From positions 439,001-503,000 of the forward strand of contig JARHZA010000002.1 in assembly GCA_029258375.1 (NCBI GenBank): a stretch of DNA of 64,000 bases. The letters run 5' to 3'. The position numbers and the translations under genes were made by a program. The notes beneath the pieces are model-generated. The model was not told where the DNA came from. It was given only the letters and a program-made list of their open reading frames with translations, and made no database searches. This stretch comes from Eubacterium sp. (GTDB lineage Bacteria; Bacillota; Clostridia; Oscillospirales; Acutalibacteraceae). Positions 13,797 to 20,369 of this stretch are shown in pieces (the stretch's first letter is position 1; every line of letters starts with the position of its first letter).

Positions 13797-14426
13797 TTAG
13801 TCTAAGACCTTCAAAACTTCGTTTGCCATAATACTGTGTCCTAAATTAGTTGGATGAACTCCGTCATGAGCTAATAGTTTAGGATCAACGCTTTCTTGAG
13901 CTTTATAGTAAACTTCTTGCATATCAATAATTTCATCTGCATTACCTGTTGCATATTCACGAAGTTTAACCCTAAATTCATCAAGAACTTTATGGAAAGG
14001 TGCTTTTTCAGGCATTGCGTCAATTAAAAATGGTAAAAGGGTAACAAGTTTTGTTTCAGGAAGTTCTGTTTTTATTCTTCTATATATCTCTTTCATGTGT
14101 GGTTCAAGTGGTCGAACAAGTGGTGGATATTGTTCAGGAACATAATTTTCCCAAGCGTCATTAACACCTATTAACATAACAATAACATCTGGTTTTAATG
14201 AAATACAGTCTTTTGTTAATCTGTCATAAACGTGATAACTGCGGTTGCTTGCAATACCTCTGTAAAAGAATTTAAGTTTTTTGTGCTTTTTCTTTAGTTC
14301 ACGTGTAACTTGTAAGGCATAAATGTCTTTGCCACCAATATTACGGTTTTGCTTTTTGTTGAATTTTATATCAGTAATACTGTCTCCAATAAATAAAATT
14401 TTATAGTTGTCTTTAATTTGTATCAT
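13797..14426 (-). CDS. SGNH/GDSL-family hydrolase
   Basis: The 209-residue protein carries the SGNH blocks in order: LFIGDSITD (nucleophile Ser), a Gly in the RGIASNRS region, GVNDAWEN (Asn) and DGVHPTNLGH (catalytic Asp and His). Such enzymes are often carbohydrate esterases removing O-acetyl groups from sugars. ATG 14426 follows a five-G ribosome site; an upstream TTG overlaps that site and was not used. It heads a two-gene operon with the alpha/beta hydrolase. Substrate unknown; deacetylation of decorated glycans before the glycosidases act is my inference. Confidence 0.82.
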   Translation of the reverse strand: MIQIKDNYKILFIGDSITDIKFNKKQNRNIGGKDIYALQVTRELKKKHKKLKFFYRGIASNRSYHVYDRLTKDCISLKPDVIVMLIGVNDAWENYVPEQYPPLVRPLEPHMKEIYRRIKTELPETKLVTLLPFLIDAMPEKAPFHKVLDEFRVKLREYATGNADEIIDMQEVYYKAQESVDPKLLAHDGVHPTNLGHSIMANEVLKVLD

Positions 14427-14450
14427 ATTTTTAACCCCCAATTTATTATT

Positions 14451-14479
14451 ATAGTATCATAAAACATTTTATCTTTCAA
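14451..14479 (-). promoter_or_regulatory. Promoter of the SGNH/alpha-beta hydrolase operon
   Basis: On the minus strand TTGAAA and TACTAT are spaced by 17 bases, ending about 25 bases before the SGNH start. Confidence 0.55.
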
Positions 14480-14605
14480 CAATAAGTGAAATATAAAAAA
14501 GTGTTGATTGAAATGTTGCGTAAGTGCAACTTTGTATTAAAAAAATTATGATAATTATAAGCGATTTGTCATAAAAATTGTTGTAATTTTGATTAAATGT
14601 ATGAA

Positions 14606-14625
14606 ATTGTTATAAATATAACAAT
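14606..14625. promoter_or_regulatory. Rex-like palindrome upstream of the redox operon
   Basis: Perfect 8-base arms (ATTGTTAT, spacer AAAT, ATAACAAT) resemble the Clostridia/Bacilli Rex operator TTGTTAANNNNTTAACAA, with one symmetric mismatch in each arm. It overlaps the -10 of a weak upstream promoter candidate (TTGATT 14589-14594, 16 bases, TATAAA 14611-14616). Rex senses NADH/NAD+. The match is by eye and no rex gene is in the window. Confidence 0.5.
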
Positions 14626-14682
14626 AAAAAATAGTTAATTTTTTAGCAAATCAACAAATTAGACAAAAATAGCGAATTTGTA

Positions 14683-14710
14683 TTGACTCGATTTAGCGTT
14701 ATGCTATAAT
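14683..14710 (+). promoter_or_regulatory. Main promoter of the redox operon
   Basis: TTGACT (14683-14688) and TATAAT (14705-14710) are 16 bases apart. TGC directly before the -10 makes it an extended -10 promoter. It drives the gene set 14793-19363. Confidence 0.8.
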
Positions 14711-14792
14711 TGTTCATATAATATAGCAAACTTTGTTGTATTATAGACAATGAGTTTTTATGTTTGTTTAATTTTATGGAGGGGATAAAAAA

Positions 14793-15200
14793 ATGGCTTG
14801 TTTTATTGTACCAGCTGCAGAAGCAATAGTAACAACTATTGTGTCAAAGGTAGTAAAATCTAAAGAAAAAGAATTACCAGTAGTTGAAGTTGAAACAGAA
14901 AGTGGAATTAAAAAAATAACTAAACTTCCATTTTCAAAAAAGTTAAATTGGCTTTCTAATTTATTATGGGGTGGTTCAGCATTACTTTGCTATGAACACT
15001 TGTGGCATGGAGAGGTAATTCCTTATTTTCCATTCTTAACAGCGGCGGCAGATCCTACAGAAACATCTATAATGTTGCAGGAAATGGCAACTGTTGGTGG
15101 AACAATGGCAGCATTGTTAACTGCTGTTTGGGCAACAATGTTGTGTGTGTCAAGCAGTATCGAAAAAAAGACTTTAAAACCATATTTAAGAAATAAGTAA
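14793..15200 (+). CDS. Small membrane protein of the redox operon, function unknown
   Basis: This 135-residue protein begins with a weak hydrophobic/amphipathic segment. A charged stretch (VKSKEKELPVVEVETESG) follows, then two or three membrane segments around residues 50-70 and 100-122. Between them are His/Trp residues (YEHLWHGEVIPYF) that might bind metal or haem. I recognise no family. It opens the operon after a strong GGAGGGG ribosome site and is followed by another small membrane protein, then hypB, a Fe-S flavoprotein and hypA. A membrane anchor or ion path for that redox enzyme is possible but unproven. Confidence 0.65.
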   Translation: MACFIVPAAEAIVTTIVSKVVKSKEKELPVVEVETESGIKKITKLPFSKKLNWLSNLLWGGSALLCYEHLWHGEVIPYFPFLTAAADPTETSIMLQEMATVGGTMAALLTAVWATMLCVSSSIEKKTLKPYLRNK

Positions 15201-15225
15201 GAGTTTGTGAAAGAAGGTAATGTAA

Positions 15226-15543
15226 ATGACTTTATTAACATCAGTTTTCGCAGCACTTATTTGTACAATAATTTGGTATAAAAAAGCACCAAAAGATGAG
15301 ATGAAGGTAAATATTCTTTGTTGGCTATATTGGGGTTCATCTCTTATGTGGTTTGTTGATGCGTGTTTTGAATATGCAGAACTCGGAGCAGAATATTTCA
15401 CTCCAGCACCAACAGATATGTTAAACGATTTATTCCTTGGTTTATCAGTAGTAGCACTTGGTATGCTCATTTGGTTAGTAATACTACTTATTAAAGATCC
15501 TAAGGGAGTTATTAAATCATCATTATTTAAAGAAAAAAAGTAA
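15226..15543 (+). CDS. Second small membrane protein of the redox operon, function unknown
   Basis: The 105-residue protein has about three predicted membrane segments (residues 1-17, 27-48 and 70-92). It has a short cytosolic KKAPKDEMK loop, acidic residues in or near the second segment (WFVDACFEYAELGAEYF) and a Lys-rich C-terminus. No family is recognised. It lies 25 bases after the previous membrane gene and 69 bases before hypB. The intramembrane Asp/Glu and Cys hint at ion or metal handling, which is speculation; nickel supply to HypB/HypA would fit the neighbours. Confidence 0.65.
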   Translation: MTLLTSVFAALICTIIWYKKAPKDEMKVNILCWLYWGSSLMWFVDACFEYAELGAEYFTPAPTDMLNDLFLGLSVVALGMLIWLVILLIKDPKGVIKSSLFKEKK

Positions 15544-15612
15544 AATATTTAAGGTAATCAAATAATATTAACAAAGAGAATTATGGCAGTTACCTTGCAG
15601 CAAGGAGAATTT

Positions 15613-16284
15613 ATGGAAGCATACAAAGTTTTAGAAGTTAAGCAAAGCGTTTTTGCAACTAATGATAAAGACGCAAACGAACTTCGTGCTAAGTTAAAAG
15701 AGCAGGGGGTATTTTTGCTCAATCTTATGAGTAGCCCTGGTTCTGGTAAAACTACTACTTTAAAAAGAACTATTGAAGCTTTAAAAGACGAATTTAGAAT
15801 TGGTATTATGGAAGCAGATATTGATTCAGAAGTTGATGCTAAAACTATGGCAGATGCTGGAGTAAAAGCAATTCAACTTCACACAGGTGGAATGTGTCAC
15901 CTTGACGCAGAAATGACAAGACAAGGTCTTGAAGGTTTAGGCCTTGAGGATGTTGATTTTGCTGTTTTAGAGAACGTTGGCAACCTTGTTTGCCCAGCAG
16001 AATTTGATACAGGATCATCTAAAAATGTAATGATTCTCTCAGTTCCAGAAGGACACGATAAACCTTTAAAATACCCACTTATGTTTTCAATTTGTGATGT
16101 AGTACTTATCAATAAAATGGATGTACTCGAATATTTCGATTTTGATTTAGATAAATGTCGTGAATATGTACATATGCGTAATCCAAAAGCAAAAGTTATT
16201 CCTATTTGCGCTCGTACAGGCGAGGGTATGGATGAATGGTTTAACTGGCTTCGTACAGAAATTACAGAATGGAAAAAAGGTTAA
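15613..16284 (+). CDS. hypB: HypB, nickel-inserting GTPase
   Basis: HypB is a SIMIBI GTPase that helps HypA load nickel into hydrogenase and sometimes urease. The 223-residue protein has the P-loop SSPGSGKTT near residue 40, the switch segment ADIDSEVDA, the HypB metal-site motif TGGMCHLDAEM and the guanine-specificity NKMD. It lacks the N-terminal His-rich stretch found in some HypB proteins. ATG 15613 follows AAGGAG. Upstream in-frame codons have no ribosome site. It is co-oriented with a Fe-S flavoprotein and hypA, but no hydrogenase or hypCDEF gene lies in the window. Confidence 0.93.
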   Translation: MEAYKVLEVKQSVFATNDKDANELRAKLKEQGVFLLNLMSSPGSGKTTTLKRTIEALKDEFRIGIMEADIDSEVDAKTMADAGVKAIQLHTGGMCHLDAEMTRQGLEGLGLEDVDFAVLENVGNLVCPAEFDTGSSKNVMILSVPEGHDKPLKYPLMFSICDVVLINKMDVLEYFDFDLDKCREYVHMRNPKAKVIPICARTGEGMDEWFNWLRTEITEWKKG

Positions 16285-16314
16285 TTAAATCAAACTTTGC
16301 AAAGGAGAAAAATT

Positions 16315-18987
16315 ATGTCTGAATTACGTCCTAAAATTGTTAAATTAGCAAAAATGGTTGGTGGTATCGCCGGCGCAATGAATAAAATTGATGCAGATGC
16401 ACCAGAGTACTATGCACTTGAATGTGTTGTAAGTGATGAACAAGCAGATGTTGCATTAACAATGGGGTTAAGAAAGCCTCGTACTGCTGAATATGTATCA
16501 AAAAAATGTGGTAAAAGCTTAGAAGAAACACATAAAATTTTAATGGAACTCGCTAAAATCGGTGTTTGTAAAGCATGGCACGATGATAATGGCCAGGAAT
16601 TATTCTGGGTTAATATCTTCGCACCAGGTATGCTTGAAATGATGGTTAACAACCGTGAACAGTTAGAAGCTCATCCTCAAATTGGTAAAGCTTTCGAAGC
16701 TTACACTCGTACACGTCTTGCTCCTATGACACCAATGCTCCCACAAGGTATGGGTATGATGCGTGTTATTCCTATTGAATCAGCTATTGAAAATGTTCCT
16801 GGTGTAGAACCATGGGAAAAACTTTCTACATATTTAAATAAGTATGATAAGTTTAGTTTATCAGACTGTTCTTGCCGTGCAGCTCGTCGTCATATTGATG
16901 AAGGTTGCGGACATTTGGAACATGAAGTATGTTTGCAAATGGGTTCTGGTGCTGAATATTATATTAACACTGGCCGTGCAAGAGAAATTACAAGAGAAGA
17001 AGCAGAAGAAGTTATTCGCAAGGCAGAAGAAATGGGCTTAATGCACGAAATGCCACATACAGAAGAAAGAGGAGAAGCATTAGCGCTTTGTAACTGCTGT
17101 GGTTGTTCTTGTTTCTCAATGCGTATAGCAACAATGTTTAAAACACCAGATGCTATTAGATCTAACTTCTGCGCAGAAGTAAATGCTGAAAATTGTGTTG
17201 CTTGTGGTCAGTGTGTTGAAAACTGCCCAGTAAACGCAATTCAACTTGGTCAACGTCTTTGTGCTAAAAACCCTCTTCCAAAGAAAGAAGAACGCACAGT
17301 TCGTGATCATATGTGGGGCAAAAAAGATTGGAACGTTGATTACCGTGAAAACAGACAAGACGTTGCAGAAGAGGGTACATCACCTTGTAAAACTGCTTGT
17401 CCTGCTCATATCGCTATTCAAGGTTACATTAAACTTGCAAGCCAAGGTCGCTACCGTGAAGCACTTGAACTTATCAAGAAAGAAAACCCATTCCCAGCAG
17501 TTTGTGGTCGTATTTGTCCACATGGATGCGAAAGCGAATGTACAAGAGGCGATATTGACGAACCTATCGCTATTGATGAAATTAAGAAATTTATTGCAGA
17601 TAAAGAATTAGATGATTCAATCAGATTTATTCCTGAAATTCGTCACGATTACGATAAAAAGATTGCAGTTGTAGGTGCTGGCCCTGCTGGTCTTTCATGT
17701 GCTTACTATCTTGCAATTGAAGGATACAAAGTTACTGTATTTGAAAAACAAGAAAAATTAGGTGGTATGCTTGCACTTGGTATTCCTGCTTTCCGTCTTG
17801 AAAAGAATGTTGTTGAAGCAGAAATCGAAGTTTTGAAAGAACTTGGTGTTGAATTCCGTACAGGTATTGAAGTTGGTAAAGATGTTACTCTTGATGAACT
17901 TCGTAATCAAGGTTACAAAGCATTCTATTTAGCAGTAGGTGCTCAAGGCGGACGTTCATTAGGTGTTGAAGGTGAAGATGCCGAAGGCGTTATTGCCGGT
18001 GTAGATTTCCTTCGTGACGTTAATTTAGATAAAGGTGTTAAATTAACAGGCAAAACAGTTGTTATCGGTGGTGGTAATGTTGCTATCGACGTTGCACGTA
18101 CCGCAATTCGTACTGGTGCTTCAGAAGTTTCAATGTATTGCCTTGAAGGCAGAGATGAAATGCCTGCACTTGATGAAGAAATTGAAGAAACATTAGAAGA
18201 AAATATCGCAATCAACAATGGTTGGGGTCCAAAACGCATAGTTACAGAAAATGGTAAAGTAACTGGTGTTGAATTTAAAAAGTGTGTTTCTGTATTCAAT
18301 AGTGAAGGTCGTTTTGCTCCCCAATACGATGAAAATAATACTATTATCGTAGAAGCAGAAAACGTTCTCTTATCAATCGGTCAGTCAATCCAGTGGGGTG
18401 GCTTACTTGATGGCAATAAGATGGAAGTAAATCCAAACGGTACTGCAAAAGCAGATTCATTAACATATCAAACTGCACAACCAGATGTATTTGTTGGTGG
18501 TGACGCTTACACAGGCCCTAAGTTTGCAATTCACGCAATTGCAGCAGGTAAAGAAGGTTCAATCTCTATCCATCGTTTCGTTCAACCTGGACAGAGCTTA
18601 ACATTAGGCCGTGACCGTAGAGAATATCACGCATTTGACAAAAATAACGTTGTTGTTGAGGGCTTTGATAATGTTCCAAGACAAAAGATTGGTCACAACC
18701 CACAAGTTAAGATTTCATTTAAGGATGACCGTTTAACATTTACAGAAGAACAGATGAAGAAAGAAACAGAACGTTGCCTTGGTTGTGGTGCTGCTCAAGT
18801 TGACGAATATATGTGCGTTGGTTGTGGTCAGTGCACAACAAAGTGTAAGTTTGATGCTATTCATCTTTATCGTAAATATGATACAAAACCTGATACATAC
18901 GAAAAACTTCCAATGAAACTTGCAGCAAATGCGGTTAAACGTGTTGGTAAGATCGTTGCAACAGGTGTTAAAGAAATTGGTAAATAA
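16315..18987 (+). CDS. Multidomain Fe-S/FAD NAD(P)H oxidoreductase (GltD-like core)
   Basis: This 890-residue protein begins with a winged-helix-like and Cys-rich domain (DCSCRAARRH near 184, CNCCGCSC near 259-266). A 4Fe-4S motif CVACGQCVENCP follows near 294-305. The middle is a GltD-like module: CPAHIAIQGYI and CGRICPHGCESEC cluster-binding segments, FAD site VVGAGPAGLSC and NAD(P)H site VIGGGNVAIDVA. The end has another ferredoxin domain (CLGCG, then CVGCGQCTTKC). It likely passes electrons between NAD(P)H and iron-sulfur clusters. ATG 16315 follows AAAGGAG. The flanking hypB and hypA suggest nickel or another metal in a partner. Confidence 0.85.
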   Translation: MSELRPKIVKLAKMVGGIAGAMNKIDADAPEYYALECVVSDEQADVALTMGLRKPRTAEYVSKKCGKSLEETHKILMELAKIGVCKAWHDDNGQELFWVNIFAPGMLEMMVNNREQLEAHPQIGKAFEAYTRTRLAPMTPMLPQGMGMMRVIPIESAIENVPGVEPWEKLSTYLNKYDKFSLSDCSCRAARRHIDEGCGHLEHEVCLQMGSGAEYYINTGRAREITREEAEEVIRKAEEMGLMHEMPHTEERGEALALCNCCGCSCFSMRIATMFKTPDAIRSNFCAEVNAENCVACGQCVENCPVNAIQLGQRLCAKNPLPKKEERTVRDHMWGKKDWNVDYRENRQDVAEEGTSPCKTACPAHIAIQGYIKLASQGRYREALELIKKENPFPAVCGRICPHGCESECTRGDIDEPIAIDEIKKFIADKELDDSIRFIPEIRHDYDKKIAVVGAGPAGLSCAYYLAIEGYKVTVFEKQEKLGGMLALGIPAFRLEKNVVEAEIEVLKELGVEFRTGIEVGKDVTLDELRNQGYKAFYLAVGAQGGRSLGVEGEDAEGVIAGVDFLRDVNLDKGVKLTGKTVVIGGGNVAIDVARTAIRTGASEVSMYCLEGRDEMPALDEEIEETLEENIAINNGWGPKRIVTENGKVTGVEFKKCVSVFNSEGRFAPQYDENNTIIVEAENVLLSIGQSIQWGGLLDGNKMEVNPNGTAKADSLTYQTAQPDVFVGGDAYTGPKFAIHAIAAGKEGSISIHRFVQPGQSLTLGRDRREYHAFDKNNVVVEGFDNVPRQKIGHNPQVKISFKDDRLTFTEEQMKKETERCLGCGAAQVDEYMCVGCGQCTTKCKFDAIHLYRKYDTKPDTYEKLPMKLAANAVKRVGKIVATGVKEIGK

Positions 18988-19021
18988 TGATTAAATATTC
19001 ATTATAAAAAGGAGGATACTA

Positions 19022-19363
19022 ATGCACGAACTTGGAGTAATAAGTTCAATGGTTAAAACTATTGAAGGAATTATAAAAGAACAAGGGTTTACAAAAGTTC
19101 AAAAACTTGTTCTTGAAGTTGGAGAATTATCTGGCATAGTTCCTCATTATATGGAAGTTTGTTACCCTGCAGCTGTATATAAAACTTTTATGGAAGATTC
19201 TGTTTTAGAAATGGAAACTATTCCTGGAATTGTGTTATGTAAAGATTGTGGAAAAGAATTTAACGCAATGGCTCACGATTTTGCTTGCCCAGAATGTGGT
19301 AGTCATAATATGGAAATTCTTTCAGGTAACGATGTAATGATAAAAGAAATATTGTGTAGTTAA
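19022..19363 (+). CDS. hypA: HypA, nickel metallochaperone
   Basis: The 113-residue protein starts with MHEL, whose His2 (with Glu3) forms the nickel site. It has the zinc site Cys73/Cys76 (CKDCG) and Cys89/Cys92 (CPECG), matching the HypA/HybF family in length and layout. It would hand nickel to a target together with HypB. A strong AAGGAGG ribosome site precedes it, 34 bases after the flavoprotein stop. It closes the operon, which ends at two consecutive terminators. Confidence 0.94.
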   Translation: MHELGVISSMVKTIEGIIKEQGFTKVQKLVLEVGELSGIVPHYMEVCYPAAVYKTFMEDSVLEMETIPGIVLCKDCGKEFNAMAHDFACPECGSHNMEILSGNDVMIKEILCS

Positions 19364-19376
19364 CAATAGGTTATTA

Positions 19377-19411
19377 AAATGGTGTTCTGCAAATATAACA
19401 GAACACCATTT
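19377..19411 (+). terminator. First terminator-like hairpin after hypA
   Basis: A 13-bp stem (AAATGGTGTTCTG with CAGAACACCATTT) closes an 8-base loop. The T-run after it is short, so it may act with the next hairpin. Confidence 0.7.
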
Positions 19412-19421
19412 GCTTTTGGTT

Positions 19422-19455
19422 ACAGATGAACTATTTTTAGTTCATCTGTTTTTTT
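19422..19455 (+). terminator. Second terminator after hypA
   Basis: An 11-bp stem ACAGATGAACT/AGTTCATCTGT is followed directly by a run of T, giving a classic intrinsic terminator that ends the redox operon. Confidence 0.85.
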
Positions 19456-19502
19456 ATAATTAAGTTGTCAAATTTTCGTAGTAGTTTTGGGATAAAATAA
19501 TT

Positions 19503-20369
19503 ATGGATGTTTTAAACTTTGTTAACTCAAAAGATATTAAAAATTATTTGTTAGATATAGATTATAAGTTCTCAACTATTGAGTGTGCTTTTCTTGTTTA
19601 CCAAAGTGCATATACAACACTAAATGAAAAACATATTGCATTTAACGAAATTCTTGAAACTATGCCAGATGAATCTCTAATATTAAAAAATAATACTTTT
19701 AATAGCATTAAGTCGTATATAAGGCATTTTGTTAGTAATGAACGTATTTTATTAAAAGAGTTTTTTAAGAATAATAAAAACTGCGTGTATTCATATAATG
19801 TATTTTTTGATTATTATGGTTCTTCAAAACTTGAGCCTGGACGAGTTTTTCTTGATTATGAAAACTGCATAGAGGATATAAGTGAAAAAGTTAAAACTTT
19901 TGAATTTAATAATATAGAAGTCATCAAATTTTATTTAGATAACAGTAAAAAAATTAAATTATATCTAAATTCAAATATGAAAATAAGTGCAGTTATCAGT
20001 TCTGCTTTTGATGATGCAAAAGAAATTTTGTTTAATGAATTTCAAATTCATATTCCAATTCCATTTAAAAAGGGAGATATTTTATATGACTCAAAAGCAC
20101 TGTTTGATGATATTGTCTTTGGTGGTCCATTTGTTTTTATAGATGTTTTGAATGAAAATTCTTCTATGTTAGCAAATGGTTATTTTGAAAATGAAAAAGG
20201 CAAAATATTTAATTCTTATCATCCTTGTTATATGGATTTAGAATTTGTATCAATAGAAAATCAAACAGTCAGCAATTCTATGGTTGCATTTAGTAACTAT
20301 ATTAAAAATGATACCAATTTAAACGAATTTTTAAGTTTATATTATGAAGAAATACGTTCAAAAAATTAA
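19503..20369 (+). CDS. Hypothetical protein, function unknown
   Basis: I do not recognise this 288-residue protein. It is soluble (no signal or membrane segment), rich in Asn/Lys/Phe/Tyr, and seems to have an N-terminal helical part (to ~residue 90) and a C-terminal mixed domain with a GDILYDSKALFDDIVFGGPFVFIDVL core. The predicted start has only a weak ribosome site and a TAAAAT box very close upstream, so translation may be weak or nearly leaderless. It is isolated between a double terminator and tRNA-Thr. Composition is like the rest of the window. Confidence 0.6.
   Translation: MDVLNFVNSKDIKNYLLDIDYKFSTIECAFLVYQSAYTTLNEKHIAFNEILETMPDESLILKNNTFNSIKSYIRHFVSNERILLKEFFKNNKNCVYSYNVFFDYYGSSKLEPGRVFLDYENCIEDISEKVKTFEFNNIEVIKFYLDNSKKIKLYLNSNMKISAVISSAFDDAKEILFNEFQIHIPIPFKKGDILYDSKALFDDIVFGGPFVFIDVLNENSSMLANGYFENEKGKIFNSYHPCYMDLEFVSIENQTVSNSMVAFSNYIKNDTNLNEFLSLYYEEIRSKN

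Follow-up and report, generated by a model that had tools for sequence, protein, structure and literature searches.

The operon and its flavoprotein

The 64,000-nucleotide window analysed here (Eubacterium sp., assembly GCA_029258375.1, contig JARHZA010000002.1, positions 439,001 to 503,000) carries the genes for the nickel proteins HypA and HypB on either side of an iron-sulfur flavoprotein, which we call FLV, preceded by two small membrane proteins, M1 and M2. The five open reading frames (ORFs) lie on the + strand in the order M1-M2-HypB-FLV-HypA, as a preliminary description of the window had them (two small membrane proteins, HypB, an 890-residue flavoprotein and HypA), with intergenic spacings of 25, 39, 30 and 34 bases; a TTG at 16297, upstream of the ATG, is a possible alternative start of FLV. 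From this layout the five genes are predicted to be one operon, bounded by one promoter-like and one terminator-like site (Table 1). The former is the best of 14 consensus matches in the region (11 of 12 positions), such matches being overall no commoner than in shuffled sequences, and the latter is the longest of seven terminator-like matches. No RNA element reached its Rfam gathering score within 14000-20000.

FLV matches the Pfam families Fer4, Fer4_20 (dihydropyrimidine dehydrogenase, DPD, domain II) and Pyr_redox_2 above cut-off; the 25 NCBIfam models listed all fell below theirs, a GltD-like model being the best among them. A winged-helix-like start is followed by a Cys-rich N-terminal domain, Fer4, a GltD/NfnB-like half and a C-terminal Fer4. 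NfnB, GltD and DPD share the iron-sulfur and FAD/NAD(P) half (FLV residues ~350-757) but lack the N-terminal domain and its six invariant cysteines, which we refer to as the Cys6 site. The two motifs singled out in the preliminary description were both located in this domain, DCSCR as D184-R188 and CNCCGCSC as C259-C266. The extra cysteines of the latter, C262 and C264, occur in 32 of 74 full-length relatives; they require two changes on a rapid tree of 87 FLV-type sequences and are therefore a lineage trait. Among solved structures, a Foldseek search with the N-terminal domain gave no match at E 0.001, the weaker ones being mostly winged-helix regulators, and its profile matches (best 60 of 108) fell on the Fer4 stretch, except for one weak winged-helix regulator. 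In the predicted model of FLV the Fer4 stretch 294-317 lies below pLDDT 50.

By its domain layout, motifs and HypA/HypB neighbourhood, FLV is assigned to the IsrA ('clade 9') family. IsrA (VUZ27132.1), a 901-residue putative isoprene reductase of Acetobacterium wieringae ISORED-2, is induced by isoprene; so are the HypA and HypB of its operon, isr, which holds HypB, a ferredoxin and two copies of HypA (Kronen et al. 2023, PMC10134865). Another group saw an identical protein induced in A. wieringae strain Y (PMC9765523). Among 988 IsrA homologues HypA was near in ~73% and HypB in ~56%, DUF5692 co-occurred at 0.4, and nickel loaded by HypA/B was proposed for a site of six cysteines whose CxC motifs lie at 180/182 and 254/256 (PMC10134865); the link between HypA/B and this flavoprotein is therefore not new. 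On the same source, IsrA and FLV are both ~900 residues long with the same domain order and adjoining HypA/HypB; the CxC motifs of FLV, at 185/187 and 259/261, differ by a constant offset of 5, by which Fer4 is shifted equally, and both proteins have the six cysteines, with the two CxC motifs 74 residues apart. As described there, the isr operon lacks M1-M2 and includes a ferredoxin and a second HypA, whereas the FLV operon has one HypA and M1-M2. The kinship was drawn from layout and motif, the FLV tree comprising 87 relatives without the IsrA sequence. We found no further work on the IsrA family in the open-licence literature. Beyond the published work, the present analysis contributes a genome in which the question is less confounded, a test of co-occurrence, the distinct grouping of HypAs from FLV loci, a pair of additional cysteines in one subgroup, and M1-M2 as membrane proteins linked to nickel.

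Proteins of 406-447 residues resembling the FLV N-terminus also stand alone at four of the loci, which we number with L (L044:8202-9518, L045:7718-8938, L046:7807-9150 and L047:7839-9125). They have CNCCxCCC in L044 and L046, HypA/HypB were not found nearby, and these stand-alone proteins perhaps resemble the isr operon ferredoxin.

Table 1. Positions of the features discussed (window coordinates unless a locus is given)
Feature	Position	Strand	Basis
Promoter-like site TTGACT-16-TATAAT, TG preceding the second hexamer	14683..14710	+	consensus only; ~80 bases upstream of M1
M1, 135-residue membrane protein, conserved MACF...EHxWHGE	14793..15200	+	ORF; conservation; no family
M2, 105-residue membrane protein, partner of M1	15226..15543	+	ORF; adjoins M1 in most genomes having M2
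HypB, nickel GTPase, motifs GMCHL and GNLVCP	15583..16284	+	TIGR00073, 254 bits (cut-off 121); PDB 4lps, E 2.6e-45
FLV, 890-residue IsrA-family Fe-S flavoprotein	16315..18987	+	ORF from ATG; domains, motifs
Cys6 site, first half: C185, C187, C206	16867..16932	+	invariant, 74/74 full-length relatives
Cys6 site, second half: C259, C261, C266 (CNCCGCSC)	17089..17112	+	74/74 full-length relatives
Fer4 [4Fe-4S] motif C294-C304	17194..17226	+	Pfam Fer4; 74/74
GltD/NfnB-like half: cysteines 358-409, FAD/NAD(P) domain to ~residue 757	17386..18585	+	Fer4_20, Pyr_redox_2; PDB chains of NfnB and DPD
C-terminal cysteines C821-C844, including a Fer4 motif	18775..18846	+	74/74
HypA, MHE nickel motif and zinc ribbon	19022..19363	+	PF01155, 109.9 bits (cut-off 28.9)
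Terminator-like hairpin, 12 pairs, T run, 3' of HypA	19422..19449	+	consensus only
M1-M2 pairs	window 14793-15543; loci L158-L184, L197-L209		lar genes nearby in 15 of 34 other genomes, a NiFe hydrogenase in one
Homologues of PDB 2b9w	L118:8389-9786; L122:8488-9885; L216:15156-16541

Association with HypA and HypB, and the nickel inventory

HypB scores above the cut-off of its NCBIfam model and has the CH and GNLVCP metal motif; HypA is above the Pfam cut-off, starts with MHE and has two CxxC. In a class sample of 196 genomes (handles G, our own being G000), 11 contained a full-length or near-full-length FLV, with the reading frame shorter at the N-terminus in G149 and G184, and HypA and HypB flank FLV at 11 of the resulting 13 loci, our own included. 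The gene orders were HypB-FLV-HypA, FLV-HypA-HypB and HypB-HypA-FLV, so that of the five-gene order, whose conservation across Clostridia the preliminary description had put up for checking, the adjacency of HypA/HypB and FLV recurs in shuffled order and M1-M2 fall outside the conserved core. Among loci of named genomes (the best 80 of 220, 78 with an FLV ORF), 54 were flanked by 2.5 kb or more in each direction, and within 4 kb of FLV these held HypA in 48, HypB in 36 and DUF5692 in 26. The clustering of FLV with the Hyp genes is far beyond chance. Culturable relatives have the locus too, among them Metaclostridioides mangenotii (L058).

Co-occurrence follows the same pattern. HypA was above cut-off in 36 of the 196 class genomes, including all 11 with FLV, and HypD in 34, one of these being a 49-residue fragment that was set aside. 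The 36 genomes comprise 21 with HypD (four of them also with FLV), seven with FLV and no HypD, and eight with neither. Within the 163 HypD-negative genomes, HypA was thus present in 7/7 with FLV vs 8/156 without it (Fisher 1.2e-8), and the seven top-scoring HypAs of these genomes were all in FLV genomes, a pattern noticed post hoc.

The nickel motifs are kept: HypAs of FLV loci retain H2-E3 and two CxxC in 81/81, and HypBs retain CH in 63/63 and GN..CP in 62/63. When these 81 HypAs (the best per FLV locus, at any distance within it) were compared with 21 others, of which HypD genomes supplied 20 and a hydrogenase operon one, a single branch divided the two sets in 94% of bootstrap trees, and shuffled labels required ~19 changes. 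On this tree the HypAs from FLV loci form a group of their own, apart from other HypAs, and G026, G068, G096 and G181 each have one HypA of either group.

Several further observations concern HypA itself. In G026 and G181 the HypA among the 21 others adjoins LarC, the second HypA match lying ~60 bases from the LarC match (G026:C14:55815-57376, G181:C31:872-2434), and HypA may therefore also serve nickel-pincer cofactor synthesis. In six genomes of one family (G022, G056, G083, G111, G134 and G157), which have neither HypD nor FLV, the HypA match starts at profile position 6-7 and excludes the N-terminal nickel motif. Two tandem HypA genes lie downstream of FLV in L215 (9840-10529), so a doubled hypA is not restricted to the Acetobacterium isr operon.

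HypA and HypB of the window belong to the same families, with the same metal motifs, as those of hydrogenase and urease maturation, but our genome (98.5% complete, one HypA) shows neither the HypD nor the large subunit expected with a NiFe hydrogenase maturation system. A profile search of it gave no match to PF00374 (NiFe hydrogenase), PF01924 (HypD), PF01969 (LarC), PF03063 (Prismane/carbon monoxide dehydrogenase, CODH), PF00449 (urease alpha) or CbiM; HypC, HypE, HypF, LarA, acetyl-CoA synthase (ACS), nickel superoxide dismutase (Ni-SOD), acireductone dioxygenase and glyoxalase lay outside this search. The absence of hydrogenase and urease, described at first for the window, thus extends to the whole genome for the families searched, as does that of CODH, for which a genome-wide look had also been proposed; of the missing HypCDEF set this could be said for HypD, with HypC, HypE and HypF beyond the search. 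A complete hyp/hydrogenase locus elsewhere in the genome, named in the preliminary description as the contrary case, was not found (no PF00374, no PF01924). The isr host is reported likewise to lack NiFe hydrogenase but to have CODH/ACS and lactate racemases (PMC10134865), whereas our genome has no CODH-family or LarC match.

The membrane pair M1-M2

Neither M1 nor M2 matches a Pfam or NCBIfam family, CbiM included, or a PDB chain at E 1. Profile comparison of M1 with M2 (hhalign) gave a weak similarity (P 1.7e-4, probability 50%), so that the two may be distant homologues of each other. Charged residues are conserved in both. The pair was present in 22 of the 196 class genomes, of which our own and G149 also have FLV, and in 14 of a family sample of 120, of which our own, G229, G267, G281 and G292 also have FLV; a weak partial match in G199 was left out of the latter count. 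Two candidate identities were rejected. As a split DUF5692, the usual membrane neighbour of FLV loci, M1 and M2 gave hhalign probabilities of 0.1 and 0.5 and no Pfam match, and as part of a conserved FLV module the pair failed by standing beside FLV in our own genome only. A tblastn search with M1 and M2 of loci L032-L127, including the closest relative, L048, found nothing at E 0.1.

The gene neighbourhoods of the pair point to nickel. In 34 other genomes (21 from the class sample and 13 from the family sample), where some loci end at contig ends, lar (nickel-pincer) genes lie within ~6 kb of M1-M2 in 15 (nine class, six family), for which a rough chance estimate, assuming one lar cluster per genome and random placing, is 1e-23. 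In one more genome the pair adjoins an operon for NiFe hydrogenase that includes HypA and HypD, and seven more class genomes have ArsP_1 permease or DUF362-like genes close to it; the other 11 of the 34 showed no such nickel-gene, ArsP_1 or DUF362-like link. Family matches of the neighbours were AIRC (LarB), PP-loop families (LarE), Ni_insertion (LarC) and ArsP_1, where the names LarB, LarE, HypE, HypF and DUF362 are those we take to apply to such neighbours. CbiM was above cut-off in 1/22 genomes with M1-M2 vs 6/9 FLV genomes without the pair (Fisher 7e-4, in a sample drawn otherwise), and from this M1-M2 perhaps play the same role as the CbiM/NikM nickel-cobalt importers, to which they show no likeness in family. 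We therefore regard M1-M2 as a nickel-linked membrane system and a candidate nickel transporter.

Proposed nickel loading, rival explanations and possible substrate

Taken together, it seems probable that FLV is an IsrA-family reductase loaded with nickel by HypA/HypB, with M1-M2 bringing the nickel in. NAD(P)H would reduce the FAD of FLV, from which electrons would travel through the [4Fe-4S] clusters described for proteins of this layout and reach the N-terminal Cys6 site (C185, C187, C206, C259, C261 and C266), which would reduce an apolar, probably conjugated, C=C bond. HypB as GTPase and HypA with its MHE nickel site would load nickel into the Cys6 site, and M1-M2 would import it as a paired membrane protein. 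Nickel in FLV is suggested by the chaperones and the genome content: FLV is the likely receiver because the Hyp chaperones share its operon and no other nickel enzyme was found among the families searched. Of the options left by the preliminary description, the flavoprotein as client is accordingly the best supported, given the searched families, the conserved adjacency and its own HypA group. Reduction of a C=C bond is suggested by analogy with IsrA, and nickel transport by the company that M1-M2 keep.

Several observations weigh against this proposal. M1-M2 adjoin FLV in our genome alone among those sampled, the nickel families were only partly covered, and the assembly may lack 1.5% of the genome. 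HypA scores 76.7 bits on NCBIfam TIGR00100, below the cut-off of 88.1, and the branch separating the HypA groups has a support of merely 91/54, on few columns and with some long branches. Neither Hyp gene was within 4 kb at 6/54 FLV loci, second FLV copies in G026 and G181 are unflanked (both genomes also have a flanked copy), and eight HypD-negative genomes have HypA without FLV, at the lower scores of 29.6-68 bits.

It is improbable, though conceivable, that HypA/HypB serve a nickel protein of another family elsewhere in the genome, FLV being merely co-transcribed. Glyoxalase, Ni-SOD, acireductone dioxygenase, ACS and LarA were outside the search, and HypA adjoins LarC in two genomes; yet the recurrent neighbour of the Hyp genes is FLV and no other gene, and the strongest HypAs of the HypD-negative genomes all accompany it. 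In vitro, metals other than nickel can occupy the sites of HypA and HypB, and it may be that the two proteins load Zn, Co or Fe into FLV, or help its Fe-S assembly, with no nickel involved, as the FLV loci without nearby Hyp genes (four with CNCM and three with CNCAP variants, and L079 with CNCNVNVC; HypA is present at other CNCAP-type loci) would allow. We hold this to be unlikely, since the nickel motifs of both proteins are kept almost without exception and M1-M2 tie the operon to nickel-pincer and hydrogenase loci. The matches of residues ~350-757 to NfnB, GltD and DPD chains would also suit a module for electron transfer to another enzyme, with no alkene reduction of its own. This we think very unlikely: the Cys6 domain falls outside those matches, no recurrent catalytic partner gene stands beside FLV among the families tested, and no second redox candidate is named among the proteins that isoprene induced in the IsrA study (PMC10134865).

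Hints to the substrate come from a few FLV loci. A homologue of PDB 2b9w (E 3e-110), a structure named 'putative aminooxidase' that we take to be the P. acnes fatty-acid isomerase making conjugated linoleic acid (CLA), is the gene immediately before FLV in L118 and L122, and in L216 it sits close to two copies of FLV. It was rejected as a general partner of FLV, being present in only these 3 of 99 FLV-type loci (examined along with the window), plus a fragment in L033. In the class sample a clear, if partial, match was found in G042 only, the others being weak and mostly nucleotide-binding stretches; our genome has none, its weak match covering 40 residues within FLV itself. Near FLV in L033, L216, L074 and L050 lie a phytoene-desaturase-like gene and an FNR-type reductase, identifications for which the family models were below cut-off (L216 tested). 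Oleate hydratase has been noted near two Acetobacterium IsrA homologues (PMC10134865). The isomerase-linked loci are possible loci of conjugated fatty acid hydrogenation; no CLA reductase genes were found described in the open-licence literature.

A wider reading, which we put forward tentatively and regard as doubtful in its entirety, is that the IsrA family constitutes a new Ni-Fe-S enzyme class with its own HypA/HypB lineage, the first in which the reduction of plain C=C bonds depends on nickel. M1-M2 would then be an undescribed two-part nickel transporter that supplies FLV here and elsewhere serves nickel-pincer and hydrogenase loci, and the natural substrates of some gut and rumen relatives would include conjugated fatty acids, so that the family would hold the missing biohydrogenation (CLA) reductases.

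The 2023 IsrA paper did not settle which protein takes nickel from HypA/HypB where hydrogenase is lacking (PMC10134865). Our genome has no match to the CODH family, LarC, urease or NiFe hydrogenase, and the question of nickel in FLV is therefore much less confounded in it. If FLV does contain nickel, a new reaction type would join the short list of nickel enzymes, and if M1-M2 carry it, they would be a new nickel membrane system. The isomerase-linked relatives of FLV are candidate genes for the hydrogenation of conjugated fatty acids.

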